This document shows, in pieces, positions 1,964 to 60,223 of a stretch of DNA of 64,000 nucleotides. Each line of letters begins with the position of its first letter. The stretch's first letter is position 1. The translations under genes were made by a program, and so were the position numbers. The DNA lies in assembly GCA_947561715.1 (NCBI GenBank), contig OX387204.1:1927001-1991000 (forward strand). The letters run 5' to 3'. The notes beneath the pieces are model-generated. The model saw only the letters and a program-made list of their open reading frames with translations, did not search any database and had not been told where the DNA came from. Source of the DNA: Ascidia mentula. Its lineage: Eukaryota > Chordata > Ascidiacea > Phlebobranchia > Ascidiidae.

Positions 1964-2762
1964 CCGCGAGACGGCGCCCGAGAGAGCACAGACTTGATTT
2001 TATTGAGGACTCACGCACGCCGCGATTCAGTCGCCCGCGTCATTTTTACTTTTTTCTCTTTCTTTCTTTTTTCCTTCCCCGCGTGGTACACAACGATTCG
2101 GACGCTGGTGGAAACTCTTACGTATACTGGCGGGCGTGGCGATTATTTTTTTACCGTCTCCTTATTTCTTTCCTTTGAATTTTTCCAACTTTCTCTCGAA
2201 ATATTCAGTATCCCGGCGGCGACCTTGTAACGGCCGTGACGTAGTTGATTACATTTCCTTAGCGGCGACACGTGTAATTTGTAGCGGAACCAGCACTTAG
2301 TTCATATTGTTTCTACTGGAGGTCACTCTGGCCCGGCACCAAGCGGATTTTATTGAGGAAACGTTGCCGCTTTTTCGTCGATAATACGGCCCTCCCTACT
2401 ACACCCCTCACTGCTTGAGATTCGCGCGCGAACCCAACCGTTTTTTTCATTTTTTCAAAAGATTTTTTACCGTCGGCAATTCCCCGTTGCGCTTATCAGT
2501 TTCTCTGTTCCACACTTGTATATGACGTCACAATGCCCCGGCGCGCGTCACACTTCATTGTTCGCATTTGATCATGTCTTTCGTGTTGTCTGCACCTTTA
2601 AAGTTCAATGTCCCTTGCAGTATCACTCCGTCCCCCCTTGCGCGCGCATCACCGCCCTTTCTTACGTCACTGACTACCCTCGCGATGACGTCATCAACCC
2701 TCACGCCCCCTCTTTTGCTGTGGAAGCGGGTGTTTTTCGTCTTGGCCTTTGTGCTGCGACAA

Positions 2763-2798
2763 AATAAACGATAATGGTTTATTGTGAGCAAATAAATC
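2763..2798 (+). other. Poly(A) signals of the first gene
   Basis: Two AATAAA hexamers lie at 2763-2768 and 2793-2798, followed by T/G-rich sequence (around 2797-2830). They are about 800 bases past the stop codon at 1963 and are the first strong signals after it, so they probably end that gene's 3' UTR. Confidence 0.6.
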
Positions 2799-5700: not shown

Positions 5701-7767
5701 TAAAATCAATACCACGAGTTCGTGACAATCCGATACTATTATTTCGGAACAAATATACCATAATAAAGTTTGGTTGAACCATTCGGACTTTTGCTTGCAA
5801 TGGCGGTGCGCTTTTTTTCGTCATGTTTGTTTTAATGACGCTTTTTTATCGGCGTCTGGAGTAAATTATTGATGCGATTCCACAGTTGCAGTGTTGAATA
5901 GAAATTGTACTCGAACATGCATATAAAAAAGGGCGCGACTATTCGAAAGTTAGTTGGCAGCAGGAGCGTAAGACGGTTGCCAAAATTTTCGAAATGCACT
6001 TTCGTTGGTGACGTAATGGTTACGCAACTTTGTTACACGACCGGCACTAATGAACATCCATCAAGCTAGAAGTAAATGACTTTGTAGTTTCGTTAAAGGG
6101 CAAGGGACATAATTTTGTTTTATACGGACTAATGACATCCACCTCTACAACTATAAACGTCGTCGCAGACTTACAAAAATAAATGAGTTTTAGGTTAGTT
6201 TTGCTTGTGTATCATGGCCGCTGTGTGCTCCGACGCCTCCTATACGTTCCACCAAAGAACGTTTTAAAAGGATCGCGTTTCCGGCGTCCTCCATTGTGAC
6301 GTCACTAGTACCGATTGTGTGCGCGAGAGGTTTGGCGTGTTGGCAAGGGGCGTTGACAGGGCGACAATTCTAAAAATATTTGCATACACGCGCACTTTGT
6401 GACGCCGTTTCTCCTGTTTCTCGGCGTTTGTTTTGTTGATTGGCCAAGTCAAAGCTATTGTGTTGCGATGCCCACTCATTCAGACACTTTGAATGTGGCT
6501 AAAAAAGTTACTTTTCATCTGAAAAGCGAAAACATTCTGGCGGATATAAGACATGATTGAGAATGCTTAAATTTGAATGTGTGTAATGTAACTTGGCCTC
6601 TATGCCTTTAGTGAGGCTAAAGAGACAATTCACCTGTGCTTCCTTGAATTTATCAGCCCTCAGGTCGTTGCATGCGCAAAACGAAAGTGTTTGTAGTCAG
6701 TTTGCATGAACCCGTGGACTTAAATGTTTGTTCTTTGGTTAATTTTTAACCCTACACAAGCGTGGAATGCTTGACATTTAGAATACGTTGAACAACATGC
6801 CACGGTCGCTTTTCGTGTTAAACTACTATGCGTTACGAATTGCTTATATTTTCTTTGTCTCAATTATCATTTATTTATTAAGTGGCACAAAAACGTCATT
6901 CAGATTGAGAGCCCACCCCACTCCTTAACAATTAATTGACAAGAATTCAAACTGTGTAGAAGTTGACCAAGCACAATAACGGTTATTCCGGATCTTCGTG
7001 TAATTCGGACAAATATTTAAGGTACAATTGATTTGTAAATACTGTATAACGGAGATGATGGACTACGGTCTACGTATGCGTACGTTAAAAAGTGGCAAGG
7101 AATCTTACTATCAGTTTGTTAAGAACTGTGTTAACCACCTTTCACCAAAATATTTGGGCAGCTTGTAGATATATAAATTTAAAATGTTCACAGACTCACC
7201 TGATACCGAAAATCTATGGTTGGAGAGTAGGTACTGTGCTGTGTATTCTAGACATCCGTGTTTACAGAATGTTTTCGCTTTGAAGTCGAAAGTCGTATCG
7301 AAAACCTATATGTTACCCGCGTCATTTCAAACCGCACGCCAACAATTAAAACACGTAAATCTTGCACTCCTTCCGTTTTGCGGTTTCAGCTGCGCAAGCT
7401 CCTTACTTCACGTTTCACGCATTGTCGTCGAAGTCCGGTAATTAACATTCCGAATGCCATGTTATTAAATCTTATAAACTTTCGCACTGGGTTCGTCAGA
7501 TAGCTTGGTATAGGGCTTGGCTTAGTTTGGTTAATTTGCTGTAAGCTTGGTTCAATGGTGTGGTCAGTTGATGAACGGCTTTGTGAATTCGTATAGTAAC
7601 GGCGCTTCACGTTTATCGTCTTAAATAAATCGTCGGTTCGTTACCGTCTGACTGGTGTAATTATGCGAAAGGATATTGAACTTTATTTCCTTTACCTAAC
7701 TTGTACTTCAATAGATGGAGATACTGCTTTGTTTACGTAGCAACAACTTTCGCCAGTTGTTGTACGT

Positions 7768-7780
7768 CAGAGGTGGGCAA
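7768..7780 (+). mobile_element. hAT-like terminal motif
   Basis: The 13-mer CAGAGGTGGGCAA resembles the end consensus of many hAT-superfamily DNA transposons (CAGNGGTGGGCAA type). About 130 bases on, the sequence GGCTCCAGAACCCTGG is reminiscent of the inner part of such elements. I found no clear matching right end, so this is at most a decayed non-autonomous copy. Confidence 0.3.
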
Positions 7781-13700: not shown

Positions 13701-16536
13701 CGTTATTGTGCACGAGGAGGTGACCTTTATAAACTGGGCACTCTTATCCTGTTCCTTATGGTAATAATGCCTTTATAGTGATCTGCATTTTTCTTTAATT
13801 TTCTTGTTTGTTATTGCTGTATGTAAACTAAATTTTTTTGACAATTCAAAACACAATTGTGGACTCAACATCTAGGCTATTATTTATTTTTGATGTTTGC
13901 ACTAAACTGCCAACTAACATCCGGTAGTTTATAATAGTGGTCTGCCGCACGTTAGCAGTTGGGATTTAGAGTTGAGTTTAATGGCGTTTCCTTGTAGCTG
14001 CTTCAACGCCAGTGGCTGTTGGGCCCATCTGTTGAAAAGCGGACAGCTGATCAAATATGTACATTTCTGTTATAATCTAACGCCACTCTTGCTGCTAGTT
14101 CCTGTAGCTGAATACCGTTGAGATGACAGTCTTAATTTTTAACAACCGAAACCTGATCATGCGTAAATGTTTTAGCGACAAAACTAAAATCAAATGCAAC
14201 ACTTCTGATTGTCAGGTGTCACCAAATCGCGGTTTAGCCTCATAGCATGACTGTATAATTAGGTTTGTATATTCGGCGTACAGAACAAACACAGCGGGAG
14301 TACGAGCTACTGCTGCATACAGAGAATAATTTGTGTAACAGAAAAACTAATTTCGTTCATTACTGCTTCTGTGCATCCAATATCGTGAACTGAACTGTGC
14401 CATAGACTAGGAACGAGAATTTAGTTTTAATTTTGCCGATTTTAGGCGCGTGCTTTACCGTGAACTTGTCTCCCGATCTTTGCGATATTTGAAAGCTTAA
14501 GAGACCGTCGTAATGTAAACGGACCATTGACTTCGTCGAAACAACCTTTGTAATTTACCTATGAGAACAATTCGACCCATAATGAGCAACCCCCCCTCTG
14601 GTGCACCGTAATGAGAGCTTAATTGCGAAACTACGGATTCTCGGAATGCTATTCCACTTAATAGGATATAAGGCGACTGTGAAGACGAAGTAGCATTCTT
14701 TCGGGGCAGTAATATGGCACTACATGGATTGCACTTTGACAGTATACACACTTTCAACATCTCCAGTAATTGTTCGTGAAGGTTGAGCGCCAACGAAGTC
14801 CCGCTTCACGAAGTTTTTTCGGGGGTGAAAGGTTTTGCTTTTCTTTGAAACGCCAATCACGTGAATGCTGTTTTCGAAAAGTTGATTTTCGTTCTGTGTT
14901 TTAAGCATCAAGAATAAAAAAATAACGGCCAATAGAAAGGGTTCCGTCGCTAGCGCGGTCCAGACACGCCGGGACCGCTTACTCGGATCGCGCCCTCTTT
15001 TTGTGACGTCATAAAGAACGGGGTGCGCGTGTGTGCGGAACTCGTGCACGCGTGACGTTTCTCTCTTTCCTGCTAGCGCTTTCGCGTTTTTACACTGCCA
15101 GATGGCGACGCCGCACGATTTAATGCCGCCGCGCATGAATATGTGAAGTACGAGTGTTTGTAGCGACGCTGCCACCGGCCCAGGTGCATTAGGAAATCTT
15201 TCCTGGTGTGTTTTAATTTGTACACAAAAAGCTGCGTTAGGTATTTGGTGAAGAAGCTGCGGTCGTTACCGCACAACAACTGTACGAAGGTGTGTTGAGC
15301 CTTCGCCAAATCGAATGGCCTTTTGTGTCAGTTAGTACAGTGATAGCGCGGAGGCTTTTTCCCGAATTTATTGCTTTAACGTAAGCGTGTATTGTGTAAA
15401 GTGACCGAATACATAAAATGATAGATGTTTTCAGTGTGTCGATCGGTTGAAACGGTTTTGCGCGAGTTTTAACGTACGTTTGTGGCTCTTCCAAAATGGC
15501 GTTTTCTCTTTACAACATTAGTCATGTTGAAAGAATGCCAACACCGACGGTTCGCTTGCGCAGCGATGACAGTAAGTGGACAAATTTGAGCAAAATATAT
15601 CTGCTTTTTTTCCAGTATGGGCAAGTAATTGTGTTTTAACCTCATCGTGCGTCACCCCTCATTGAAAGTCTCGAGAAGTCGCTTTTTTTATTGAATGAAA
15701 ACTGTCCCCTAATTTGACTTGCCAGATGGAACCTGACGTATGGACAAAAGCGGGCGCCCCGTCCAGATCAAAGTTTCCATTCGTTTGTTTACGTTTCGCG
15801 TCTTCGCGGGCGTTTAAATTCCACCTTTCCGCTGTGAAATCATCGGTAAATTGCGTCACCCGCCGAACCGCTGAACAAAAACGCCGCGAAAATGGCAGAA
15901 CTTCATGGCAAACCGCGCCCACGAAATTCGATTGAGAAAAGCACAAAGTGCGATGTGGGGACTAGGTTATCAAATTCGCCGTACAATTATGCGATTTTCC
16001 GTGTACAAACTTGTTTCTTTTCCGCCAGATATTAAAAAAACTGTTGCAATTTGCCTAAAGGTAGCTATTTCAGTTGAATTACTAGCGTGAGGTTGTGTAA
16101 AAGATGCGTTAAATTTTGTTGCGTTTGCTTCTTTTCTTATAAGAGACATCTGTGCGTTTTTTTTTTCATTTCAATTTTTGACAAAACGTCTCTCAGAACC
16201 AGTTGCGCAATTTGATAAAACGAAATTGTTATAAAATCGGACTATTAGAGTAATATACTCCACTGATGGCCATAAGAAACACTGGAAGGACTCAATTTAT
16301 AATAACTCGGTATGTTCGTGTACGTTTGGGATTTTTGGAGTCTGTGTCATATTTACTGTTGCTTAAACTCACTAAGACGGTTGGCGTCTACGCTGCGTGT
16401 GTCCACAGACAACTCTGCGGAAAGCTGGAAACCAGTTGGAAAACACAACACCTTACGCGGCTGTTTTTTACTTTCTATCAAGGAAAGTAGTTGATTGTGT
16501 TGCTGTTGCTGCCAGGCATGTTGTGTTTTGATTAAT

Positions 16537-16690
16537 CTGTTCTTCTGGCAAAATTAAACGTAATTTTTATTTACCGTCGTTTCGCCTGCCATTTAACCAG
16601 GCTTCATCAGGGTAATGGTGCATACAGCACACAACCAAGCAGCAGCACATCGGTGAATAAAAGTTACGTTTAATTGTGCCGCAAGAACAG
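16537..16690. mobile_element. MITE copy A, 154 bp with about 27-bp terminal inverted repeats
   Basis: The left end CTGTTCTTCTGGCAAAATTA and its extension to 16563 match the reverse complement of 16664-16690 with three mismatches in 27 bases. The interior carries TTTCGCCTG...AGGCTTCATCAGGGTAATG, which recurs in copy C near 63.65 kb. There is no coding capacity. The termini resemble copies at 21856, 46274 and 63607, so this is one dispersed non-autonomous DNA transposon family. Its superfamily is not clear to me. Confidence 0.8.
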
Positions 16691-19360
16691 ATGAGTTAAA
16701 CTAGTTTGTTTCCACTTTTGTAGTAACGTTGTCTTCCATCGTGGTCGAGCAAAAAACATTGAAACTCAACGAAAAACAAAAAGATTTTCTCTTGCAGTTT
16801 CGTGGGTTTGTTGATGACGTCAAGACCAACTTGGGCAACGTTTTCTGCGCACGGTGCGTTTCGCCAGCTTCCACAGTTGCTTGGGACAGGTAATGTTGTG
16901 GCCGCCACTCCCGTCGGTCAAAAGGTCGCACTTAAATATAGAACTCCTTCGCTCCGTATTGAACTGCGCACGAGAACGACCGGCCAGCGCGATTTTTTAT
17001 TGCATTCGCCGTTTCCGACTTCACGCCGGGCCTTCGGAACGTTTGTTTTTGCGATTATGACGTCACAATGGTTCTCCTGCGTCACGTGATCGCCAGGAAG
17101 CCGGTTTGTCGTTTTCGTATTGAGGAAGCCTCAGTATGATAACGACGACACACGCGCGCTTGTGTGTGTACGGGTGGGCGTGTTTTACACGTTTTAAATT
17201 ATCAGAGATTGTGTTGAGGTATATGCGTTCATTGTTGTTGGAGACGTAACCTCAAGTGAAGGCGTCGAAATTGTTCGTGGCATTTTTTTAAGTGAACGCT
17301 TTTGGAAGGATGGCAAAATCATGTTTGTTGTTCGAAACGCTTTGCTGTGCGGCAAGGTTTGCTTGGTTCGTTTGGCGGATCAAAGTAAGCCATCAACAAA
17401 CCTGCGTCGGTTTTGAAGACGGGTTTTGGTTAGGTTCTTAGAGATGGAGCCACAAAAAGTTAGGTTTTGGAGACCTCCTGGAGAAACTTGTTGTTTAGCC
17501 AACAAACTTGTGGTACTTTCGATGTGTGGTTCAAGTGCTGTTTTATAATAGTAGTTTTCTGTTAATGGAGTTATTACATCGAACAAGCGTTTGTATTTGC
17601 AACCACGCAATGAGGAAATTACTAATTAGTGAGTCGTTCAGCACACAATTTATGTATTTCAAAACACACAACAGTGTGGTTTGCTTTTCTGTAGTAAAGC
17701 AATGTAAAAGAAACATTTCCGATTGCGTTGCAGCTATTAAGTCTCCCAGAGAGCAGCTGTTTGAAGTTTAAATGGCAGACGTTCGTTTTCGGCACGTTTC
17801 ATCTCCGGTGCGACAGCTGGAGCGTGACGTCCTTTAATTGGTTGAATTTGCCACGTGGTTGCGGCGTAGCGGATTCTTTGTTCGATTCGGCATGTGTGTC
17901 TGTGGTTGTTTAAAATCGTTTCTTGTTTAACAATGTTCAATTTTTCTGTTTTGCAGGATCAGGATCTGTTAATTTATTACTATTTATTTGCTTCTGCCTA
18001 ATTATTACTAGGCACGATGGGAATGTAGTTCGTTGCTTTCGCTGCCAAGTGATTCTAAGGTGAGACGAACTGCTTTTTCAATTTCTCTGAAAAACCGGTA
18101 TTTCAAGATGCTCATTGTTCGCCGAAAACCTTCCTGACAACCCGACAATTTTCAATTTGCCTACAACAACCCAGCAAACTATTTGCTTGCATATTTGCAC
18201 ACACCGCTGGTGACTTTTTCGAAACCCTACTTCCCCCATGTCGGTAAAGTTTCCAAAATTTTCGCTTTGAAAAAACGTCACTTTTGCCATCAGGTTGTTT
18301 GGAAACTTGGTAGTTTCGCGTCGAACGTCAATGAGTGAATTATGAGGTCACTGAGGCTAATTTTTGTTCCGCGTATGACGCATAATCGGTGCGGAGTGCG
18401 ATACCAGACGCAAGCCTTTCTCCTTTGAACTTTCGGGAAGTTTTGATTCGGTTTATGCATCCATCGTTGTCATGTGCGATAGCGATAAGTTACCGAACGT
18501 TACAAAATATAAGCCCTGGGTTATGTCAGCCACGCATAATGCAGTTTATAGCAGTATCTGGCCGGAGAACTAAGTTAGATCAGTGTCCCTAACCTAATGG
18601 ACTCAGGACCGATTTAACGTGATATTAATAGTAATATTTTCAGGAAAATGTGACAGATAAACACTGTGCAAATAAATAAGATGCAACTTTTTATTACGCT
18701 GTGTAAGAGTAAGTCTTGCCAAAGACTAATCCAACCGCTATTGCTGGCTGGATTTGGTTTACAATCTGCTTTCGTGAGTGCGTGCATAAGCGTGTGACAT
18801 CTTTAGATTAAGGTCGAGAATACGTTTTCCTGTACAGACCGTTTAAATATGCCTTCGGGACTGTGATGGTTGCGGTTGACATTCGGGTTTAATGTCGTTT
18901 GTAAGTGATTGATAAAACTTTTTTTTTAGGTTAGAAACAAACTTCTTATCCAACTGTGATTGTTCGAATTATGTGAGATTATGGCGGAGGTGACACAACG
19001 CAAAGTAAGGTACAGAGACATGGAAAGAACAAGCTTGTCCAGAAAGAGGTACGAAAGTGTAATAAAAGTACTAATGACTTACTGCCAGAGGAATGGTTTA
19101 CAATTTACCAGATACTTAATGTAGAAAAAAAAAATATTTAACCAAAACAGTGCAGTCTTGACTTTCAACATTTACATTATGATGATAATGTTATTAGTTG
19201 TCTTTCAGCACACCCGCCATGATAGCAATGATCTTTGCTTTTCAGATTCCAAAAGAAGAAATTTCACAGCACCCAGGGTGTCTCTATGAAAAGCAGGTGC
19301 ATTACCATGGCGCATAAATAAACCCCTGTGGAATAAATTAATCAAACCTAAAAATTTCAG

Positions 19361-46600: not shown

Positions 46601-49600
46601 CACGGCTGACAGCTTTGCGATCCTCGGAAGCAGCGATGCGTGACGTTTTAAGCACGTGCGACCTTTTGTGTGCGGCGAAACTCGATGATGTGTTTGACCT
46701 GCTAGGAATTTTCGCCTGCGTGCTTTGCAAGCAGCGTACGACAGCTAAATGCTGTTTAAATTCGCTTCGTCGCAACCAAAAAGGTCATCGGCTTGTACGT
46801 GCACTAAAACTATAGAAATGCGCGTGGCGGTTTCACGAATATCTCATGGGACAATCTTTAGGGACTCTGGTGGCATTTTCACACCGTATTTGGGTTCGAT
46901 GCATTAGGGCCGGTTGGCATTTAGCTTATTTCGAAAGTTGCAATTTGCAAACAGAAATTCTTCTCGTGTAATGAACCCAACTGCCATTGAGGTTGGCGGG
47001 TACCGCACAATCCATTTGCGAAAAAAAAATAATAATACACCACGAAAAACTGTTAATAGGAGATTTAGTAATAACGCATGTAACCGCCCCGTATGGAACC
47101 AATTCTTTACTCTTGTTTACCAAATCGATGCATGTTGACGTAAGTTTATTGCCACTATATATCACCAATCGATTATGACGCAACAATGAGTCACTCCGTA
47201 GTGCTAGGGTTTACGAACAGCTTGTCGCGATTCGAATCCAACCGGATCCTCTTTCGCAGTCGTCGCAGAAGCAGAAGTCGATCCGCAATCGATCGAAGAA
47301 GAAGCGCGGATCAGGAGGCACCTGGAGGAAGAAATCCTCAAAGGAGAACAGACAGCGAACGTTCCTCATCCGTCCTCTCTCCCACCAAGCTGCTTTCCTC
47401 ACCCCCACGCTTATATTTATTAACCCCAAAAGCGGGGGTAACCAGGTGGGTAAGCGGTAAATCCCGGATAACAATCGGGGACTATCCCACATAAGCCGTA
47501 AATTGGTCTGTTCGATCTTGGGGGTCCGTTGTGTAAAATAACTTGAAAACCGCAAATATCACCTGTTTTGAATTGCGCCGCTACTTATCGTTGCCATGGC
47601 AACGTTGTACGTCAACAGCCCTACGTACGCTCATTGACTTGATTTTTCACAGGGCGCCAAACTGATGCAAGCGTTCCAGTGGGTAGTGAATCCACGTCAG
47701 ATCTTCGACCTTTCGAAAGGCGGTCCACAGGAAGGGTAAGAAAAAAAACCTGTGTTTTCCCCGAACAGATTCATGCTCTGGAACAATATCACGGATTAGG
47801 TTGCAATTCTGATGTCTGATAGGCTGGTCCATTATGCAAAGAGCATTGCCATGTTTAAAAACCGTAGTCTCAACATCTAACCCCGTTACGCCATTTTATT
47901 GAACTGATACAGGGACAAGTTATTGCCGGAACGTCCACTTAAATTAAGCTAATGTTTTCTGCATTATAGACGATTTATTTATGTTGTCAAACTTATTATT
48001 CTTGGGAGTGAAATGCAAAACAGCAATGATTACGACCCTATTTTAACCAACGCAACGCATCTTCAATACCCACACTAAACGTATAGTAGGCTGTTTAGAG
48101 CAATGTTCGTGAAATGCCTTTTCGTTACAAGATTTCCATTCTGTTTTGCGACAATTAATTTCTACAGACTTGCGAAAGTGCGGCAAATGTATTGCGTGAA
48201 GGCAAATTCGTTGCAACCAACATGTTGCTAAAAAAACAAAACCGCCAACAGCATATAGCTCCCATATATAGTTCAATGTGCATAGCTGTCGCACTGAGGG
48301 GGTACCAACGTCCATGGCAATTTTTGCGTAACGTCAAGTGTCACACAATGTTATTGTCAAATTTATTGACCTGCCCGTGCGAATTACATCAGGCGCACTA
48401 AGGGCTTATATCCTGTAATACATAGCGAGCCGTGAAGATTGGCCTTGTGAATAATGCAAAAGCAACTGTAAGAGGCACGTCCACGTTAATCATCACCGTC
48501 ATTTTGTTCGATAATCGGAGCGCGCGGCGTCTCTCGTCATTATCGCGAAAACCCGATTTTAATGATTAGCCTTTATACGGTCACGTGATCGCGGCCAGCG
48601 CTTTGAAACAAGTTGAAAGCTGTAGCATTATACGTTGCGAATCGTAGAATTAACATCAATTATTGGTTTTACCTGGGCTTCTGTGACTGTTTTGACGTCA
48701 CCAAAAGCGGTTCTGCCACACAGGACAAAAGGTTGAAAAAAACTGATTTAAATCATAAAGGCATGAATTGCGTACCAAGGTTTAGTCGAGTGCCGACGTA
48801 TTTTGATACGTTGTCTGCCATTTTCTGCTTACGCTATGATGTAATATGTATTTGTGCCCGTAAGCCTGGGTGTTGATGCATGCGATTTCAACCTGAACTG
48901 TAAGAGTATGAAATGCAACAATTTAAAAAATACACCTCTCATGTTTGATAGCAATATTTATGTATTTTCATTGCGGAAGTTGATTGTGATGAAACAACTG
49001 AAAATCTCTCGAGGGGGGGTGTCAACTTTATAAGATATTGCAACTACATGTTTTACTTTGTATGATGTTAACTCTTCGTGACCCACAATATTTGACATGT
49101 CACCCCTGCAGGGTCGCCCCCCCACCTTTGGGAAGCTCTGCTTTAACTCATCGCTTTAATTTATTAATCCACGTCTTGTAAGTCTTGATAGTAGCCGATA
49201 CAACGGCTGTGTGTTTGGTTCCACGTGTAAAAGAAGCTTCAGAACGGGTAATGACAAACGACAAAGCACACCGCCACAAGACGGCCTATACACTGTGTAA
49301 CATTTTTCATAAATTATTTATCTTAGCGCCGCGAATGACGAACCGGGTTGTTATGTTTCCGGCATCACATTACTTCAATCTAATCCATTTGACATTTGCG
49401 GTGGCACAAAGGCATCGGAAAATGTATTTAGTTTGATGTGGCCGATTTTTTTAGCTGAAATAGCTTTGGGATCATGGTGGGGGTGGGGTCCTTTTGTGGT
49501 CGAAACAACATCTTCACGGAAAGCTGTTTTTCTCTGTGGCGTGGTAAAAACTGCAACCGACGGAGTCTTAGCAAATGAAAATAACCCGGGAAAAACAGCT

Positions 49601-52600
49601 GAGCTGTGATGCTGTGAAATGAACCGATTAATTTTGACGGTTTTAGTTGCGTTTGACGTTTGTTGTTCCGTCACAATCATTTTACAAATAAACATTCAAA
49701 ACGAAACTTTTCGGAAAAAATTCTTCATAAAACCTCGCGAGTCAATCAAATGCTAAGCAAGAGAAACAGGTGATCATAACTGTTCTGCACTGACCCGTTG
49801 TACGCGGTTGATAATAAAGCTCTGTCGCCCTAAATGTGTATTTCAACAAAACCAAATGTACTTTCGATTTGCCAACAGATTAGAGCTCTATCGAAAAGTT
49901 CCAAACCTCAGGATCTTGGCTTGTGGAGGCGATGGCACGGTCGGCTGGATTCTATCCGTACTTGATAAACTTTCGTTGTCTCGACCGCCTCCAGTGGCCA
50001 TTCTTCCACTGGGAACGGGCAACGATCTGTCGAGGACCCTCAACTTCGGACCGGTGGGTTTTTGTGACGTGATAAAGGTTATTGTTTTGCAACAAACAAA
50101 GACAATTGAATTTGGAAACCTTTGTTTGTTGTGACGTTTGTGAGTGTTTGTCAGGTCTCTGTTTCGTGATAAGTTCGTTTTGGGATGAAATATACATTAT
50201 AAAAATGGTAATTTTGCATTAAAAATTGAAAAATGTTTTTTATGCAATTACCTTTAGCGCTACTCATAAATATAAAATGAACTTAACCCCCCTTTCTTAG
50301 TCACGAGCCTAAAACCGCATGAAAACTACCAAAGTTAAAAAAGTTATGACCTATATTTCGTGCGTTTCCCAAACTCCACAATTTAATCTTCCTCGTGTTC
50401 CGTGCAGGGTTACACTGACGAACCAATCCACAAAATCCTCCAGGGCGTAGAGGAGGCCAGACCCGCCAAATTGGACCGTTGGAAGTTGCACGTGGAACGG
50501 AACGAGCAAGCGCAACTTCCCGCTAGGCACACCGAAGACGATGAGGTATGACGTCATACACAAAGCTTGTGTTGTTTTTGTTTATTTGCAAACAATAGTT
50601 CGCGCACTGAGAAAACAAGGAAAACGGGCTTCATGCCAGGGATAGGGTCGAATTCACTTTTTGTCCAAATGTCAGCGTAAAAAAGGTTATAATCCTCCTT
50701 GGCTTTGGCATTTGTTTAATCTCGTTAAGTATAAGGGTTCGGTTTTTCTGCTGTCTCATCCAAAGGTTAAATCGCGTGAAAGCCGATGCAAATAACGTTA
50801 GGCATTCAGGTCGGGCTCTGCAAAGACGGGAATTCGATCGGCAGGGATTTGCGAAATTTCCATTTTAAATATTTGCTAGTCCTTGCACTGATTATGAACA
50901 CAGTTGAATTTGAAACGTCTGCCAACAACTTTATGCTAACTAACAAGTTCTTAGTTTTGGCTTTCATGTTGAAAGCAATAACGTCCAAATATATGTTGTT
51001 TATTCGTAGCAAACGAATTTACCACCAGAAGAGAATCTGATGACTGGGGTGGACAATCCTCCCTTAGATGTGGTGAACAATTATTTCAGCATCGGTTCCG
51101 ACGCCCAAGTCACCCTCGCTTTCCACGAATCAAGGGGTGAGTTCAGCTTTAAACTTTTATAAGTGCTTTGTGTATAAGTGAATAATAAACCAGTGGTTCC
51201 GGCCCGTTTTCATGCGCAATTCTACCCGAATGATTATCGTGGCATTTAATTTTAATTTCACTAGGAAAATAAAATACAAAAAAACATATTTAAATAGTAA
51301 GCATTTGATTTTGGTGGAGTTTCATATGTGGTTAGGCAGTTAAGAAACAATGTTCAAACTAGCATGCGTAAATTTCCTTAACCCATTTTTTTGGCTTAAC
51401 AGAGGCCCATCCAGATAAGTTCAACAGTCGCATCGGTAATAAAATCTATTACGTGAGAGCCGGCATGTTCGAATACTTGACACGACAATCCAAGGATCTA
51501 TCCAAACACATCACTGTAGTCGTGAGTAAACATATGTATTTTTCTTCAGTTGTTCTATATATTTTCTGTCAGTGTCGCACAAAACAGGTCACACATGCCA
51601 AGCTTGGCAGCCATTTGTTTGAAATTGGCACGCGGACTGATTTTACTAATATGTTCAAGTCACAATGTTAAAATCAAGCTTCTTTGTGAACACGTATTGT
51701 AATCGATCTCATAGTGCATTTTATTTGACTACATAGCAGTATTTCCCAAACTGTTTAATTCGAGAAACCCGGCAAGGCTATTTAAGTTACAAAAACATCA
51801 AGTAAACCTACATATTTTACCCAAAATTATAGCATTTTTTTTGTCTTTTCGGATTGGTTCTCATCCGTTTTTTTGTCCAATGTTAAGTTTATTAAGCTTG
51901 AAACCAGATACTAGCTTATGTATGGTTCGGCAGTAACCAAGGATTATAGCAACGCACTCCAACGGCTTGGGTGGTAAACTTGCACTTAACTTACGTTCAG
52001 TGTGACGGCCAAAACATTACGCCGAAGATCCGGGAGCTCAAACCAGTCTGTATCCTCTTCCTCAATATTCCCAAGTACAGCTCCGGGACTTGCCCTTGGG
52101 GAAACCCCAGCGGCAGTGAGTTCACTGTGCAACGTCATGACGACAAACTCATTGAAGTTTTGGCGTTCAGTCTCAACCAACTGGTAGGTGTTGATATTTT
52201 TACCAAAAATGCATATCCTCCGCTGAAAAGTTATGCGGATTTTCTTTCATACATGGTTTTCCTTAAAAATATCTACCTAAAAAATATGTTTTATCAAAAA
52301 TACGATAAAAAACTTGACCAGACCTTAATCTTTGTGACGTCAGAACCGTCAATTGGAATTGTTTCGGCACGAAAGCTCACACAAAAAGTTGCAAAACTCA
52401 TGTCTTAATTGTTAGAACAATAACTACCGTCGGGGTTAATTGTAACGTAATAAAACCTGTGTGTTTTGTCACTTCTCACAGGGCATGATATTCGTCGGAG
52501 GACACGGCGAACGACTCTGTCAGTGCAGGTCGGCTACCATCAAGACTTACAAAACCTTCCCAGTGCAAATAGACGGTGAACCCTGCAGGTATTACGTTAG

Positions 52601-55600
52601 CAGTAATTATGAAGTGCACCACTCTGAACCAGTGGTTCCCGACTTTCATGTACCAGTGACACACTCAAACTCACCCTCAAAAACATACTCAACCCAACCT
52701 ATTACGCCCCATGTAAAAAATGTCGACCGTTTTGGTGGTAGTTGAACGGTTTTGGTGGGTTTTGGTGGGTTTTGGCAGTTTTTAGAGATGAATTCGCTAA
52801 CGTGCACAGGAACAATAAGTCGTTTTTTTTTCTTTATTGGTACAACAGGAAAATAGTCGCAAGGCCTGATTTGAAACCTTCCAAGTATAGAAACCCTAAA
52901 AAATATTTAAACGACGCACAAGTGTTTCCGAACGCACCATTTGGAAACTCATTTGGAAACTAATCCCAACGTTTCGTCATAGGTTAAATCCCTCCATTAT
53001 CAAGTTTGAGTTTTTCAACCAAGCTAACATGCTTTTCAAATCCAAGAGAAGAACATCCGCAGCGTCAGAGTAAGTATACTCTCCTTTGTTAATAACATCG
53101 TATATTGCACGTAAATTAACCTACTGTGTTGTCATGGATTAAGGCCCCATCCTCACGACCAGATTAAGATTCGTCTAAACCTGCTGACGAGTTATGATTT
53201 CGATGCTCAAGGTGGAATGAAGGAGAAGCTTATTACAAAGGGTATATTGAGTTTGAAACATGTGTAAATGTTTTTGTTCAGTTTTTTTTTACAATTTTCC
53301 TAGGAAATACATGATTTGTGCGTAATATAGTATGGCGTTAATCCCTTTAATTTTGAAATTGTTTTCAAAAAACGATTTTCTCAATACCAAGTTCTCCATT
53401 TCAAACGTTTTCCGTTGATTATAAACAGAAGTTTTGTTTTTGAAACCGCATACTCATTTAATGCACCAGGGGCTATAATAACTTCTTACATGAAGTTTCG
53501 CCTATGGTGTTACGCTTTGTTTTTTTGCAATTGTTCCTTGTAAATAAGTCTTACATTGTTCACAGCATCCCCCTTCCTTGTAACTGTGGTGATGAGCAAT
53601 TCGCGACTGGACGTTTTGCGAACTTGCCTGGACAGCCTCAACACCGTAAGTTAACTCAGTAATTATTTGATAATAAAAGTTAGTGCTTTCATTACGTCGA
53701 GTTGCCTATACAGCTGCACACATCATAAAATCGTACTCCCAATTGCTATGTAAATGTTTGTACTTTTGCAGGCGAATGCTTCTCCCGATCCGAGTGTTGA
53801 ACGCTGGTTTTTTCTTGATTGTAAGTTTTTGTTCTTCCTTTTAATGAATACTTACATGTAATCATGCACGCTTTTGTACGTAATTATTAAAATACTGTTG
53901 TAGTGAATGTAACTGCGTTCAAGCAATAAAGTTGTCATTCAGTCTTCAAACTAAGAGTTTTAGTGTTGAAGTAATAGTTTGAAACTAACTTAACTAAGTA
54001 CCACTACAAAACTGCCTGTAAAGTTGTTTCGACAAGTATGTGTATAATTTTCCAATTAATGAGTGAAGAAGTTTAAAAAACGTTAATGTTTAAGATAAAC
54101 CGACACCTCTTTGTTTCTCAGCAAGCGACGACGACAGATTTTATCGAATCGATCAAAACCAAGAGAACCTGCATCTCGTTTGTGACGTCATAACCAATGA
54201 CCGCGAGCTTTACCTTTTGGAAGTTCCCGAGCCCCAAACATCTCCGTTACTAGTGAGTGTGACGTCACAGTAACATATTGTTTCGTCTGTTTATTGACAC
54301 AGCTTACCTGTGTATTTTTAACAGCATTTTCCAGTTCGTTCGAGGACAATTGACAGGAAATCTCTGCAATTCCGTGGAAGGGTACACAGCGACTCAGTCG
54401 TCATTGGGTATGGGTTTCTATGCTAAAATTGTGTTTGTGTTCCGGATATTGGTAGCTTTGAGGTTTGAATATGTAATAAGTTTTTCTGTTTTTTTCGCCT
54501 TTCATGAAAGCTAAAGAATAGGTTTTTATGCATGTTTGTTAACTTCCATTTCTTTTCAGGGAGAATCTTACTGATGCTGTAGACTTTACGGCGATGACGC
54601 AGGTTTGTGAATAAAAATGTTGTAATATTTAAGAAGTTCGTTATTCCTCACAAATACACCCAATTCGTTCTTGTGTTATTTAAATAGTTTTTTTTCGTAA
54701 AAGAGTGTCTAAATGTACACAAATATTTTATTATTTTTATCGGTTATTTTATTGTTTTGGTTAATTTCGGGGTTCCTTTATTCTAAAGCATCGTAACCCG
54801 ATCTCCCATGACGTCGCCAAGTCCGGCAACGTGAGTCCTCGAGTGTTGAGTTCTCAACTAATAACGTCGCCGCTAGACGTCGTCCTTGAAAAGGACCGCG
54901 ACGAGGAAGAAGTAATCGTTCCAGCGAAAACTGATGACGTCACATCAGTAAAATCGGAAGGTACTGACGTCGCACTGGCATTCGAACCAGAAGTTACACT
55001 GGATACTTCTGAAGAAAAAGAAGTGACATCAGAACCGGTAAATGACGTACCCGTCGTGGAGGTTGTAGCGGATACGTCGCCATCCAATGATAAAATACCG
55101 AGTACGTCATCATCAATAACAGCATCCCCGATTGCTCACGTGAGTTGCGTCTCTTCTTCTGTTTCGCTGGTAGGGGAAATTTAGAAGGGGAATGAATAAA
55201 ACTTAGTTGTTTTGTACCACAGTGCAGTTGCTGGATAATTTACAGAACTCGGCAATATTATGTTGCAACATCATATCTCTCATGGTCTATATACGGAAAT
55301 ATTTTTTAATTCGCTACAGCGACTGTACGAAAGCGACTGCTCGTCGTACTCGACTTCCAGCAACGAGTACGTCATCAACGATGACGTGGGAGACGCTTCA
55401 CAAAGCAAAATTGCCAAATCACGACACAAGTCAATGATGACTCAGCGCTCACCGCAAAAATCGCCTCTCCGCACTTCGCAGTCGAACCCCCCGATTGCAG
55501 GCGGACAACTGCTCGGCGAGTTTGTCAGGTGGGTTAGTGACGTCATAGTCGAGGGTGACGTAATCAACGGAGTGTTTTCCTGCTGTTTAGTAAACTTGAC

Positions 55601-57477
55601 GAGGTATCGACGGGGAAGAAGAAAGAACACCGAAGAAGCAACACCGACACCGATCCAAAGAAGTAAGTTTGTGTGTTCGAGCCGGGGTTCGAACCCGGGA
55701 CCTTCGGGCTTACCTTGGTTCCGTGTTAATATATAATAGGAATAAGCCAGTATCGATAAAGCGTATGTTGGTATAAGTTACATGCACGCACCTAAGATTT
55801 CAACTGGTTATTACAGTGAATGTAAATAAATCAAATCAAACCAATCTCGTCGATGATATGAGTGGATTTTTGTTGGCTTTACGCGTCACAGCTGTCCTCT
55901 ATAAACAAAGTTGAACATTGCAGATCTCTGGCGAGTGGTGGTCAAATGTTGTTAAGCAACTTTGTGAAGACAATGAAATTATCCAGCGGCAACAGTAACA
56001 GCAACAATAATAACAACAACAGCAACAACAACAACAACAATAATAACGACGTATTCGACCTGAAACCATGCCAGAGTTGTGAGGATGTTTCGATCCCAAT
56101 TCTCCGTCGCAACCATCTCGCTTGCCGTCGTCATAGCTACGCGGAGTCACGTGCTAATCAGGTAACAACGTTTTTCCTTAATTTATTCCCGACGCAGTTT
56201 ATGGTTATACCGGGTAATTGCAGATTGTCAGTTTATGAGAGTGGTATGGGTAATATAGGATAACCATCGCGTTATATGGTGCGAAAAGAAGTTGCTTTCC
56301 ATTGAAATTACTTGAAATTACGACAAATATACACCTTTTGTTTAAAAATATTGTGTTAGTTAATTTTTTGCCGCAACTTATTTCTATGTTTTCCATCAGG
56401 GTCAACAGAATCCCGACAACCGTTTCTGGTAAGTGGTACTGCACCATTCCATGTCAACCGTTGTGACGCAACAATAACCCATCGATTTTGTGGCGCAGGA
56501 ACGCGAGATTTTTGGAAGCGGCAAAAAATGGCGACGTGGAAACAATGAAAAAATCGATCCGACGCGGTGCGGATGTTTATGCGACAACTAGTGGCGGAGA
56601 AACGGCTTTGCATTGCGCCACTAGAGGGCATCATGCCGATGCAATTGGATACATTACCAAAGGTGAAAAATTTGGGGCAATGGCGCCCGTACGAATGAAT
56701 TATTCATGCAAGTCGTCGCGAATTGGGAATTTTTTGCAAAAAATTTAAAATATTGCTCGCATTTCAGAAATTCCGGAGATCGTTAATTTGACGGACAAAC
56801 ACCGACAGTCAGCGCTCCATCTAGCGGTTAAATGTGGCAAAAGCCTGTGTTCAAAGTTGGTACATGCCGGTGCTACAATCGGTATGGTGGATTCAACGGT
56901 GAGTTCCCACTTTGTTTCTTTTGCAGCATGTTCAAGTACTCCCACAGAAACTGTATGTAAGTGACGTCAGTGAGTGATATATAATCACACACATTACTTT
57001 GCAAGGTGTTCCTGGCTTTAAACAGACAGTATGAATGCACTCATGATCGTGATTTTTGTAAGACTATATATTCCGTTGGATTTAATCGTATTTGTCAAAA
57101 CTCTCGAATCGAACGTTTTGCTTCGACGTATTACTAAAATATCATTACCCGTCGTCCCTATTCCTCTCCATTAGCTGCACGTTAATGTGTGTCTTTACTG
57201 CCGTATGGTTGCTGCGTTAAGGAAGAAAACTTTTCAGTAACATTTGGAATCCAGCAACTATCTGTAAATTAGCAACTACGGTGCATATTTTTAAACTCAT
57301 CCAAATTTCAGTTTTTCAGCAAATATTTAATCAAAATATTTTCTTTGTCTTCAGGGCAGGAGCGTAATCGATCATGCGAAACATGAAGACAACCTCCCAT
57401 TGGTTGAATTTTTAGAGAGCGAGCAGAATTCAAGGTTACAAACGGTCATGAAACTGGCGCCGGAGACAGACATATAA
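29419..57477 (+). CDS. DGKI/DGKZ-like: Diacylglycerol kinase, zeta/iota type (34 coding exons, 1341 aa)
   Basis: Type IV DGKs phosphorylate diacylglycerol to phosphatidate, at membranes and in the nucleus. Exons: 29419-29617, 29935-29973, 30277-30390, 31600-31690, 41404-41518, 42105-42188, 42580-42654, 43236-43292, 44030-44098, 44560-44598, 46031-46168, 47260-47445, 47653-47735, 49879-50053, 50408-50545, 51010-51136, 51403-51521, 52001-52183, 52482-52588, 52983-53069, 53144-53241, 53566-53645, 53772-53820, 54122-54252, 54325-54407, 54560-54602, 54789-55139, 55320-55528, 55591-55662, 55924-56161, 56400-56428, 56499-56662, 56768-56898, 57355-57477. All 33 junctions agree in phase. Domain order: two C1 (187-340), MARCKS-like basic stretch (341-373), catalytic (from 388; GGDGT 446-450, GTGND 475-479), accessory (about 550-720), variable linker, ankyrin repeats (1203-1301), C-terminal ETDI. 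The pre-duplication state of zeta and iota is likely. The true start upstream of 29419 is unsettled. Confidence 0.93.
38581..38770. repeat. hAT-like non-autonomous repeat, copy 1
   Basis: The block containing GCATCAAGTAAACCT followed by TTTTACCAAAATT, a T-rich stretch and AAGCTTACTCTAGTAGG is alignable by eye with the block starting at 51737. It ends near CCCACTTTGGGAAAGG, which resembles a hAT terminal repeat (AGTTTGGGAAACACTG type). Borders are approximate. Confidence 0.5.
39287..39729 (+). CDS. DGKI/DGKZ-like: Probable alternative first coding exon of DGK (RRRS-rich)
   Basis: An ATG-initiated frame stays open for 157 codons here, unusually long for this non-coding background. A donor-like GTACGT after 39729 leaves phase 2, which is what the exon at 41404 needs. 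The resulting isoform would read ...[15 protein letters not shown] and replace exons 1-4. The 147 residues are basic and Ser-rich, with three RRRS motifs (Ser14, Ser32, Ser72) that fit basophilic kinase sites. Isoforms of vertebrate DGK zeta also differ at the N-terminus. Against it: no homologous sequence is recognised, the donor has A at -1, and two TGACGTCA palindromes lie inside the frame. The initiating ATG at 39287 is the first in frame. Confidence 0.5.
41404..46168 (+). CDS. DGKI/DGKZ-like: DGK exons 5-11: linker and two C1 domains
   Basis: Exon 5 (41404-41518) gives [13 protein letters not shown]...VDWT. Exons 6-8 encode the first C1 domain ([40 protein letters not shown]). Exons 9-11 encode the second, extended C1 ([46 protein letters not shown]...VPPTWIIK). 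Zinc-ligand Cys and His residues typical of DGK zeta and iota C1 domains are visible. In this class the C1 domains do not behave as classical phorbol-ester receptors but are needed for activity and targeting. Introns are phase 0 from exon 5 to exon 13. Confidence 0.93.
46274..46407. mobile_element. MITE copy D, hairpin-forming, in DGK intron 11
   Basis: The left end TGCTCTTCTGGAGTTAATTA and the right end ...TTAATTGATGCCAAAAGAGCA are inverted repeats related to copies A-C. The centre contains a second inverted repeat, TACAGCAAG (46319-46327) against CTTGCTGTA (46347-46355), so a single strand could fold almost completely. The loop TCTTCGGGG resembles the middle of copy C. Confidence 0.65.
47260..50545 (+). 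CDS. DGKI/DGKZ-like: DGK exons 12-15: MARCKS-like stretch and catalytic domain
   Basis: Exon 12 encodes a Lys/Arg/Ser-rich segment ([17 protein letters not shown]) in the place of the MARCKS phosphorylation-site-like region of DGK zeta and iota, a nuclear localisation and PKC-regulated element in mammals. It is followed by [12 protein letters not shown], the start of the catalytic fold. Exon 13 gives [16 protein letters not shown]. Exon 14 gives [20 protein letters not shown] and [20 protein letters not shown], with the ATP-binding GGDGT intact. Exon 15 gives [17 protein letters not shown]. The Gly-rich motifs needed for activity are all present, so the enzyme is predicted active. Confidence 0.94.
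49130..49140 (-). mobile_element. hAT-like terminal motif in DGK intron 13
   Basis: Read on the minus strand, 49122-49140 begins CAGAGCTTCCCAAAGGTGG, a typical hAT-type end. The adjacent GTCACCCCTGCAGGGTCGCC is also typical of the subterminal part of such elements. I could not place the other end with confidence. Confidence 0.4.
50090..50131. repeat. Perfect 12-bp inverted repeat in DGK intron 14
   Basis: CAACAAACAAAG at 50090-50101 is exactly complementary to CTTTGTTTGTTG at 50120-50131, with an 18-base loop. GTGACGT also occurs outside both arms. It begins 36 bases after the donor of exon 14. Confidence 0.6.
51010..52588 (+). CDS. DGKI/DGKZ-like: DGK exons 16-19: accessory domain
   Basis: Exon 16 starts at 51010 (TTATTCGTAG acceptor), chosen over AG at 51028 because only 51010 keeps phase 0 and it restores LPPEE...[16 protein letters not shown]. 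Exon 17 gives [18 protein letters not shown]...[11 protein letters not shown]. Exon 18 gives [36 protein letters not shown] and [15 protein letters not shown]. Exon 19 gives [15 protein letters not shown]...[11 protein letters not shown]. These are hallmark blocks of the DGK accessory subdomain, which packs with the catalytic lobe in all DGKs. Confidence 0.93.
51191..51210 (+). mobile_element. hAT-like terminal motif in DGK intron 16
   Basis: CAGTGGTTCCGGCCCG at 51191 matches the CAGTGGTTCCC-type end of hAT elements. No right end was identified, so this could be a chance match or a small remnant. Confidence 0.25.
51737..51920. mobile_element. hAT-like non-autonomous repeat, copy 2, in DGK intron 17
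   Basis: It begins CAGTATTTCCCAAACTG, a hAT-like terminus, and continues with a body sharing CATCAAGTAAACCTA, the TTTTACCCAAAATTA stretch and AAGTTTATTAAGCTTG with the copy at 38581-38770. The right border is not sharply defined. Confidence 0.5.
52630..52780 (+). repeat. hAT-like end followed by a short GGTTTTGGTG tandem array
   Basis: CAGTGGTTCCCGACT at 52630 resembles a hAT terminus, 42 bases after the donor of exon 19. Near 52730-52780 the unit GGTTTTGGTG or variants repeat about four times in tandem. The whole lies in intron 19 (52589-52982). Confidence 0.4.
52983..55662 (+). CDS. DGKI/DGKZ-like: DGK exons 20-29: conserved post-catalytic segment and variable acidic linker
   Basis: Exons 20-24 still align with zeta and iota: [78 protein letters not shown]. 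Exons 25 (54325-54407) and 26 (54560-54602) were needed to restore phase between exon 24 and exon 27. Exon 27 (54789-55139) encodes an acidic Glu/Asp/Val/Ser-rich stretch with no homologue that I recognise. It has two in-frame GTGAGT donors, after 54830 and after 55139. Exon 28 starts at the acceptor before 55320, because upstream readings hit stops. Ser/Lys-rich exons 28-29 continue the linker. The region explains why this protein is longer than vertebrate forms. Confidence 0.78.
55676..55712 (-). repeat. tRNA 3'-arm-like fragment
   Basis: On the minus strand a perfect 5-bp T-stem (CCGGG/CCCGG) encloses the loop TTCGAAC, followed by CTCGAACA like a 3' acceptor half. No matching 5' half (GTTCGAG) is found within 100 bases, so it is a tRNA or SINE remnant. 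It starts about 12 bases after the donor of DGK exon 29. Confidence 0.4.
55924..57477 (+). CDS. DGKI/DGKZ-like: DGK exons 30-34: Asn tract, ankyrin repeats and PDZ ligand
   Basis: Exon 30 (55924-56161) was placed at the acceptor before 55924 because the one before 55892 is out of phase. It contains a Ser/Asn repeat with runs of six and eight Asn, encoded by AAC and AAT codons. Exon 31 (56400-56428) is only 29 bases. Exons 32-33 encode ankyrin repeats ([47 protein letters not shown]). Exon 34 ends LAPETDI before TAA 57475-57477. ETDI fits a class I PDZ-binding C-terminus and corresponds to ETAV of DGK zeta and iota, which binds syntrophins and PSD-95-type proteins in mammals. Confidence 0.9.
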
Positions 57478-59219
57478 CATGAAGTCACCACAGATGCTTG
57501 TGACGTATACAAACGCGCTTTGTGGCGTGTCTCACTTACTGCGAGTTTGTGTTTTCTCGTGTGATGCCATCTGTGGCATGGTTTGTTTGTCACATGGCAC
57601 CATAGCGACTTGTCACGTGTCACAAGAAGGCGGGTTCGTTGTAAACGTACAGCATGAACGTTTTTGACAAAGTATCAGTGGTAAAAGAGTAAAACGATAT
57701 CCATCGTACTGAGTCGACTCTTCATCTAAGGTACTAAAGCAAACGCAGAAAACATTCCGCTTTTTTTGGTACTTTTCCGTCAGTTTAAATGTACGTTTTC
57801 TATTGTTTCGTTTACATACAAAGGCAAGCATTAAAACTCCCAGCATTCCTTGCATTCTCCGCGCTTCTTCTTTTCGCGGTTCACAATCTTCTGTGTGTCA
57901 CTAGTGTTACCGTCCACTGATCCAGTATTATCAAATATTATTTTGCAGTCATTCGGCCCCGGCGTTTGTCGTGGGGTCGCCACAAGGACACTTTCATCCT
58001 CGATAAAGATTGCACTTAAATGCGAGCTATGAGATGGCGCGAAACCCAATCGCACGTGCGATAAATCCCATGAATTTCTGCACTCATTATGTCTCACCTG
58101 TTCGTTGCTTTTTTCAGTGCGCCCGAAATATTTTTTTTCGCACGGAACCAGAACCAAGGGTCTTTTAAAGTTTGGAATTTCCCGACCCCTTTTTGATATG
58201 TTGTGACGTCAGAACTCATTGATTGTTCTTCGACGCTTCAATAACCCCGGAAACTTCAAATTTGTTTTTTCTTGGTGATGACGTAGTGTTCTGTTTATGT
58301 TTCTGACGTAACAACTCTCATTATTGTATACAGATGGGATTTATGTTTCTGTGCAATAAACTTTTGTTCACGTGACAACTTTTGAACATTTGTACTTGGC
58401 AAAAACAGTGTGGGGGTCTCGTGATTGTAATTGCGACACATTGATCATGCCAAAATCATGTAAGGGGATAAGAACGTCAATTATTCAGCTTTCACAAAAG
58501 AACAAATTTGGTGCGTTTAGAATTCCAAGCGATTATAACTTTTTAAAAAAATTTGATTTGGAAAATATCAATAATTTTTCAAATTGGTGTTTTGGAAACC
58601 ATTCAAGCGTATCGGCACAAAAGTTTGGTTTGTTTGCAAATATTTAGGATACTACGGATATAATGAAGTCATTGGGCTATTGTAGTGCGAATAGTTGTTT
58701 AAATGTTCAGATGGTAATTTGCATAAAATTTGCGTAAACCAGTCAGGTAATAACAAATAATTGACTGGCCAGTCATGGAACACGTGAGCATAAAGTGTAC
58801 AAACAAGAAGTGTTTGCAAATAGTGAACGACTTAACCTATTTACAGTTTGTAAACATATGAACTAACCTATATTCGTTAATTAGATAGTTCAAACAACAT
58901 GTGAACTAATTAATTAACGAATAAATATCCTTTCCAAAAAACTGGCATGACAAATTTATAGATCCAACGGGTCAGATTTGGCCCAAGATAGCTGTTACTT
59001 ACTGCCATGTAAAATAAATATAAGATTTAAAAGTGACACATGAATGTTATCTACTTAGGCTTATAATAAAATAATTAGTCCAAATTCTCTCAATCGTTTT
59101 GAACTTTTTGTTCCGTTTATCTAGACAGTGTTGGTTGTTTTTTTGCAGCTTAGCTTGTTTCAAAACAAGACTCACAAATGAAGCCTTTTGTTGGACATAA
59201 TTTAAATATTATTTTTCCA
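57478..59219. other. DGK 3' UTR and spacer before LRMDA
   Basis: The DGK 3' UTR probably runs to AATAAA at 58355-58360, about 880 bases past the stop. It contains a TGACGTCA site at 58204 and a 108-codon minus-strand open frame at 57831-58157 with no known relative. From 58.37 to 59.22 kb the sequence is AT-rich with nothing recognisable except a pyrimidine-rich acceptor-like TTTTTTTGCAG ending at 59149. Confidence 0.5.
58355..58360 (+). other. Poly(A) signal of DGK
   Basis: AATAAA followed by TTTTGTT-rich sequence. I see no better signal between the stop codon at 57477 and the next gene. Confidence 0.5.
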
Positions 59220-59220: not shown

Positions 59221-59259
59221 AACTGAAAGAATACATGCGACCAACTGATTTCTGTGATT

Positions 59260-59931: not shown

Positions 59932-60194
59932 ATGATTTGTTTCAAGTGTGTTGTCTGTTGAACTTATGCTATGATGCTATGCACTTTTGTCATGTTGTGA
60001 TGCAATATAATTTTATTTGTATCAATTATAATCTTGCCTAATATTTTGTGCAATATAAACATATGTTTTCTAAGGTGATATTTTGATAATAAGTATAACT
60101 TTGTTGTCCGAAATCTTGTGAGGTGTGATCATATATATATATAACGTCTCCGTAAATTATACATACCAAATGTTCATATATTGTAAAATTCTGT

Positions 60195-60205
60195 TGTTTT
60201 CATAG
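60195..60205 (+). promoter_or_regulatory. Splice acceptor just upstream of the PHF10 start
   Basis: TTGTTTTCATAG ends at 60205, leaving an 18-base leader before ATG 60224. The spacing of about 270 bases from the LRMDA stop and the absence of AATAAA in between make it a candidate trans-splice site. Confidence 0.45.
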
Positions 60206-60223
60206 CGATATCAAAGTAGTAGA

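Follow-up and report, generated by a model that had tools for sequence, protein, structure and literature searches.

A genome-wide excess of the CRE palindrome in the ascidian Ascidia mentula, with dispersed bZIP recognition sites as its candidate explanation

Why should one eight-letter palindrome recur throughout a stretch of ascidian DNA in which about one copy is expected? The window analysed here, 64,000 nucleotides of Ascidia mentula (assembly GCA_947561715.1, contig OX387204.1, positions 1,927,001 to 1,991,000), contains 24 exact copies of TGACGTCA, the CREB/ATF-site palindrome or CRE, between positions 2523 and 58211. An earlier note on this DNA had reported 24 copies against roughly one expected, and both figures hold on recounting: 100 dinucleotide shuffles of the window give a mean of 1.07 copies and a maximum of 5, the trinucleotide Markov expectation is 0.97, and the octamer ranks first by z among the 8-mers of the window. 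The copies had also been described as often taking the form TGTGACGTCA, and a left-adjacent TG is indeed found at 12 of the 24. Near-miss forms had been called frequent, which stands for TGACGTAA (12 copies versus 2.52 in shuffles) and TGATGTCA (8 versus 2.90); for TGACGTGG the evidence is a raw count of 10 in a pooled set of 134 kb. This pooled set consists of the window and seven 10-kb loci, among them L014 and L015, picked as dense, and L016, picked as sparse; L011 (10 kb, all N) and L001–L008 are excluded from it. The window has 375 CREs per Mb and the genome on average 128 per Mb, a 2.9-fold difference, and the excess in the window is therefore partly regional.

The copies are spread over the window as exact matches at 2523–2530, 6297–6304, 15004–15011, 16815–16822, 22873–22880, 24938–24945, 25551–25558, 35182–35189, 42196–42203, 48693–48700, 50549–50556, 52335–52342, 56962–56969 and 58204–58211. 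Others have related words nearby or an extended form: the CRE at 2686–2693 is accompanied by TTACGTCA at 2662–2669, that at 17058–17065 by the E-box TCACGTGA at 17082–17089, and that at 55538–55545 by TGACGTAA at 55556–55563, and the copy at 33246–33253 is extended to TTGTGACGTCACAA. The E-box palindrome is itself over-represented in the window (6 copies versus 0.91 in shuffles, at 3275, 14857, 17082, 48581, 55136 and 58368) and in CpG-retaining bins of the pooled set (10 versus 1.71 expected).

Five copies had been assigned to predicted exons, and this assignment is plausible, as each lies in a frame uninterrupted by stop codons across the examined stretch (53 to 160 amino acids). The CRE at 22307–22314 falls in a likely exon (frame ...LLTSLVQ...) and is followed within 60 bp by TGACATCA (22334–22341) and TACGTCAC. 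Those at 39399–39406, with TGACGTAA at 39415–39422, and at 39576–39583 share one open frame of 160 amino acids. The remaining two, at 54183–54190 (likely exon, frame ...LVCDVITND...) and 54935–54942 (in a 139-amino-acid open frame), belong to a region (49.8–56.7 kb) that matches diacylglycerol kinase catalytic and accessory domains and ankyrin domains. Exon status is supported for these two sites because they are flanked by matches to the diacylglycerol kinase accessory domain (51950–52405) and to ankyrin (56467–56745); domain support of this kind is absent for the frame at 39278–39757 and the exon candidate at 22307. A further CRE, at 54260–54267, directly follows a putative splice donor, assigned by eye. 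The presence of CREs in likely exons is odd for purely regulatory elements. Downstream, the product of the frame at 59257–59928 is a leucine-rich melanocyte differentiation-associated protein. Its best relative comes from Phallusia mammillata (68% identity over 100%), followed, among the relatives with a name, by proteins of Clavelina and Ciona; judged by this single gene, the host is probably nearest to Phallusia mammillata.

The excess is real, genome-wide and sequence-specific. Over 195.8 Mb in 79 contigs, TGACGTCA occurs 25,112 times, far above the 6,257 copies of the backward word ACTGCAGT that serves as its control. Of 20 contigs whose length was determined, four measure 19.7–27.9 Mb, and contigs C67, C52, C73 and C71 extend to at least 19.8, 13.3, 8.4 and 6.2 Mb, respectively. 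The core GACGTC is not over-abundant, with 45,568 copies compared with 54,314 for its backward form CTGCAG; the excess appears with both flanks, that is, with the full octamer, which contains 55% of GACGTC copies as opposed to 11.5% for the CTGCAG control. The seven-letter word TGACGTC is found 31,063 times on the forward and 30,954 times on the reverse strand, and its backward control 16,395 and 16,240 times. When the left T and right A of GACGTC are arranged in a two-by-two table, independence of the flanks predicts 4,013 octamers, leaving a surplus of about 21,000; the odds ratio is 6.3, and the same calculation for CTGCAG gives 1.7. Words of the same composition tell a similar story: in the pooled 134 kb, TGACGTCA leads the 96 palindromes that can be built from its letters with 57 copies, followed by the E-box TCACGTGA with 11. 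At ten loci chosen for bZIP or KID exons, 9 CREs occur in 31.4 kb and the backward word does not occur. The distribution is strongly clustered, with 0 to 14 CREs per 10 kb in the first 220 kb of contig C1 (mean 4.45, variance 21.5).

One way to account for these counts is that the octamer is a by-product of CpG-rich composition, since CRE density climbs with the observed/expected ratio of CpG (CpG o/e). Inside CpG-retaining bins of the pooled set, however, 51 CREs are observed versus 1.85 expected from the local Markov model, and the 567 non-palindromic CpG-containing permutations of its letters have a mean of 2.7 copies versus 57, the leading ones being words that overlap the CRE. Composition alone is refuted by these figures, and it is an exceedingly improbable source of the excess.

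Dispersal as a tiny mobile unit or repeat family, one of the three options raised in the earlier note, is rejected for the tested sites and has next to no likelihood as a general account. The note had remarked that the flanks of the copies differ, and at these sites they do. All 11 of the window CREs searched with 60-bp flanks (11 of 24, in a search that skips very common words) match their own place alone in the genome. Among 2,850 flank pairs from 76 listed sites, shared flanks are confined to the overlapping loci L005/L006, to a young tandem duplication within L015 and to a single pair of diverged segments within L009. What this explanation has in its favour is that a few copies do come from tandem duplication and from a minisatellite. 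The duplication in L015 (C1:162001–172000) is 98% identical over about 1.46 kb, with its copies about 7 kb apart and four CREs in both, and it is therefore too young to inform on CRE conservation; its second copy was dropped from the variant-clustering, first GC and CpG-bin Markov tests. In the single diverged case, at L009 4591 and 8024, the CRE is intact in both related segments and the flanks agree at 60 of 120 ungapped positions. The minisatellite, at C1:258508–258622, carries at least 4 CREs exactly 35 bp apart.

Other repeats were seen along the way. A satellite whose repeat unit measures about 206 bp occupies L016 7674–10000, in a CRE-poor stretch of contig C1. A short diverged repeat starting with TAAYCTGTTCTTCTGGCA is found in the window at 16533–16580, 21852–21899 and 63603–63650 with no CRE inside; its first two copies have inverted partners nearby, and it is possibly a small MITE-like element. 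No tRNA genes, and no Rfam families at gathering score, were found.

CREs are rare where CpG is depleted. In one-kb bins of the pooled set, those with CpG o/e below 0.7 contain 1 CRE in 26 bins, and those above 1.3 contain 8 in 9. All 24 CREs of the window fall outside its 15 bins whose CpG o/e is below 0.9. Two CpG-depleted 4-kb segments of the window, at 28001–32000 (CpG o/e 0.63) and 60001–64000 (0.54), have no CRE, and neither do two CpG-rich 4-kb bins beginning at 8001 and 44001. Part of the scarcity in CpG-poor bins is trivial, since the loss of CpG lowers the local Markov expectation to 0.14, with 1 CRE observed. In the available portion of PMC3827831, Ciona gene bodies are described as being either heavily methylated or not methylated at all, and methylation as absent from promoters and intergenic DNA. 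By analogy with this pattern, the CpG-poor segments may be read as methylated. The CpG-retaining, CRE-bearing DNA is probably unmethylated and accessible.

This context leads to an alternative in which the CRE is chiefly an architectural or methylation-protecting element: unmethylated copies, bound by bZIP or other factors, would mark unmethylated domains and keep them so, with little direct role in the transcription of nearby genes. The scarcity of CREs in CpG-depleted bins and their strong clustering along contig C1 are in line with such a role, as is the lack of bias towards the transcription start site (TSS) described for Ciona CREs in the accessible part of PMC1796609. Causality may nevertheless run in the opposite direction, as CpG is lost from methylated domains, where the local Markov model already predicts few copies. 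It is a rather unlikely explanation of the excess.

More direct information comes from the letters around the octamer. Genome-wide, 15,886 of the 25,112 CREs (63%) have the form RTGACGTCAY, with a purine before and a pyrimidine after the site, as opposed to 1,438 of 6,257 control words (23%). In the pooled set, the base preceding the octamer is A at a frequency of 0.49 and G at 0.39, with a weaker preference for T at -2 and -3. CREB-type proteins favour purine flanks and bind TGACGTAA well. This one-letter variant also tops the Markov comparison in the pooled set (39 copies versus 4.7 expected, 8.3-fold), where it is accompanied by TGACGCCA (12 versus 3.0), TGATGTCA (22 versus 6.7, 3.3-fold) and TGACGGCA (9 versus 2.7). 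Methyl-CpG decay, by comparison, would favour TGATGTCA and TGATATCA, not TGACGTAA. No copy of TGATATCA was found in CpG-retaining bins of the pooled set (2.34 expected). In CpG-poor bins, TGATGTCA (4 versus 1.78) and TGATATCA (2 versus 0.90) are slightly raised on few copies, which is compatible with decayed CREs.

Genome-wide comparison with backward controls reverses the order of the two variants, as TGATGTCA has 14,172 copies versus 6,739 and TGACGTAA has 20,400 versus 12,372. The count of TGATGTCA is inflated by tandem arrays, 29 of its first 100 places lying within three arrays of contig C1, and the enrichment of TGACGTAA is handicapped because its control has GC for CG. Given this reversal, the arrays and the uneven control, the variant argument is only moderate: the pooled set puts TGACGTAA first, and the genome-wide backward controls put TGATGTCA first. 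The three TGATGTCA arrays are similar to one another, with a spacing of mostly 21 bp, and lie at C1:649754–650051, 705908–706184 and 750645–750942.

Half-sites and variants also gather beside CREs, in numbers that are only suggestive. ACGTCA occurs 26 times within 100 bp of CREs (10 expected). Variants within 25 bp number 4 in the window (3.33 per kb versus 0.49–0.62 beyond 200 bp) and 5 in the pooled set (1.89 per kb versus 0.76–1.13). A search for 6-mers near CREs placed CGCTAG and others on top, uncorrected for many tests.

The second option of the earlier note included a mutational bias, to which a repair bias may be added: either would create or protect the octamer with no bound protein. 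Such a process would act inside and outside likely exons alike, where CREs are indeed found, and it could draw on the excess of TGATGTCA. Against it, the top neighbour in the pooled set is the transversion TGACGTAA and not a transition, a point that the genome-wide controls leave less clear; the purine/pyrimidine preference extends past the octamer; and each of the remaining 95 same-letter palindromes has at most 11 copies. The GC-richer surroundings described below, present relative to matched octamers, count against it as well, and a bias of this kind appears an improbable cause.

Around the CREs, GC content is raised over a patch of about 200 bp, which fades within a few hundred bp. Within 25 bp of the CRE, GC content is 0.457, compared with 0.412 around 1,371 matched CpG octamers (source-matched P 0.0025, n=53). 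A second test on other loci (n=17), which left out L004, L007, L018 and the L006 overlap, gave 0.446 versus 0.416 at 0–100 bp (P 0.0065) and a P of 0.09 for the 0–50 bp bin; at 300–700 bp, GC lies below the control (0.401 versus 0.419).

Such a patch could also stem from biased gene conversion, the other half of the second option. If CREs marked meiotic hotspots, as does the M26 site bound by Atf1–Pcr1 in fission yeast, GC-biased conversion would produce the GC bump, and its fading within a few hundred bp suits this idea. Hotspot motifs are, on the other hand, expected to erode rather than accumulate, and neither the flank preference nor the TGACGTAA variant needs conversion. The M26 precedent is described as a CRE-like sequence bound by an ATF/CREB protein, which makes it similar to the present octamer; it differs in coming from a unicellular fungus. 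A hotspot origin is accordingly regarded as very doubtful.

Candidate binding proteins are encoded in the same genome. A bZIP_1 profile matches 15 exons, two of which lie 0.5 kb apart on contig C71 and match PDB chains of the CREB1 bZIP domain (E 3.1e-20 and 2.6e-19). A KID match is located about 3 kb upstream of them, so that this CREB-like locus, at C71:6232227–6235957 (L017, L018 and L027), combines a KID match with two different bZIP exons and provides a CREB-type protein gene with a matching basic region. The second of these exons is presumably similar to the second DNA-binding exon found in vertebrate CREM, a hint that alternative exons of the CREM type are older than the vertebrates. 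Other bZIP exons of the genome are taken to be JUN-, FOS-, XBP1- and ATF4-like. As several bZIP dimers could use CREs, CREB itself is not singled out.

Of the three options, the one with the strongest support is a regulatory or chromatin signal, through the flanks, the variants (moderately), the CpG context and the GC patch. The palindromes are slightly more apt than not to be dispersed recognition sites of the CREB/ATF family of bZIP proteins, some 25,000 exact copies that would lie mainly in CpG-retaining, putatively unmethylated DNA, as candidate sites in non-coding DNA and in some exons. Under this explanation, bZIP binding to an unmethylated CpG-containing palindrome would keep short, GC-richer patches accessible, and CREs that bind well would be retained. 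Sites would turn over one by one through point mutation, and the flanks of different CREs would therefore be unrelated. Binding, accessibility, methylation state and selection are the steps that we infer here. A bolder version, and an unlikely one, is that CREs serve ascidians as a general genome-organising mark: bound by bZIP proteins in coding and non-coding DNA, at up to about one per kb in some domains, they would nucleate small accessible GC-rich patches and delimit unmethylated domains, a role filled in vertebrates by CpG islands and pioneer factors.

Comparison with known systems places the candidate sites close to the canonical CRE bound by CREB/ATF. The octamer is identical, and the flank preference, like the leading variant of the pooled set, is as expected of a bZIP site. 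The difference is one of position: according to the available portion of PMC1796609, the CREs of the surveyed vertebrates cluster upstream of the TSS (at 1 to 150 bp in mammals), and those of Ciona, fly and worm have no positional bias; in the present window they are scattered, and some fall in likely exons. Cyanobacteria, too, have a short palindrome, HIP1, that recurs across entire genomes, according to excerpts of PMC4390886; it has another sequence and another setting, a prokaryotic one, in which it is discussed together with DNA methyltransferases.

Studies of other ascidians partly fit a dispersed CRE excess common to the group. In the sections available from PMC11001920, TRTGACGTCA is the only MEME motif to reach significance in notochord regulatory regions of Ciona, with 10 copies in one 1.8-kb region; it overlaps a needed AP-1 core in Cnot11, most copies lie outside minimal enhancers, and a further two putative CREB sites proved dispensable. 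The motif shares its core and the TR on its left with the present CREs, and is interpreted there, differently, as possibly a context-dependent enhancer motif; part of its signal could be genomic background. Two constitutively accessible Ciona Ebf elements contain mainly CREB and T-box sites (PMC6952182, in excerpt). Ascidian muscle promoters are CRE-enriched, and mutation indicates that CREs are needed in the Ciona Mlc2 and Mrlc2 promoters (review PMC6589888, in excerpt); these are likewise ascidian CREs, albeit ones that concern the promoters of one tissue and not a genome-wide excess. The ATAC motif analysis of Ciona savignyi names Fos-B, and the terms ATF, AP-1 and bZIP do not appear in the portion of that article at hand (PMC10931586), nor do ATF, CREB and bZIP in that of PMC10944513. 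Searches of open-licence PMC papers brought up no account of a tunicate with a genome-wide excess of CREs.

The finding thus concerns a single octamer that stands in an ascidian genome at four times its backward control and about six times the expectation from independent flanks. If other ascidians share this excess, searches for enhancer motifs would find the CRE by default, and published CRE and AP-1 enrichments therefore need a genome-background control. A shared excess would also make tunicates a clean system for relating a CpG-containing bZIP site to mosaic methylation and accessibility, and for asking if vertebrate CREs acquired their promoter bias from a dispersed arrangement of this kind.
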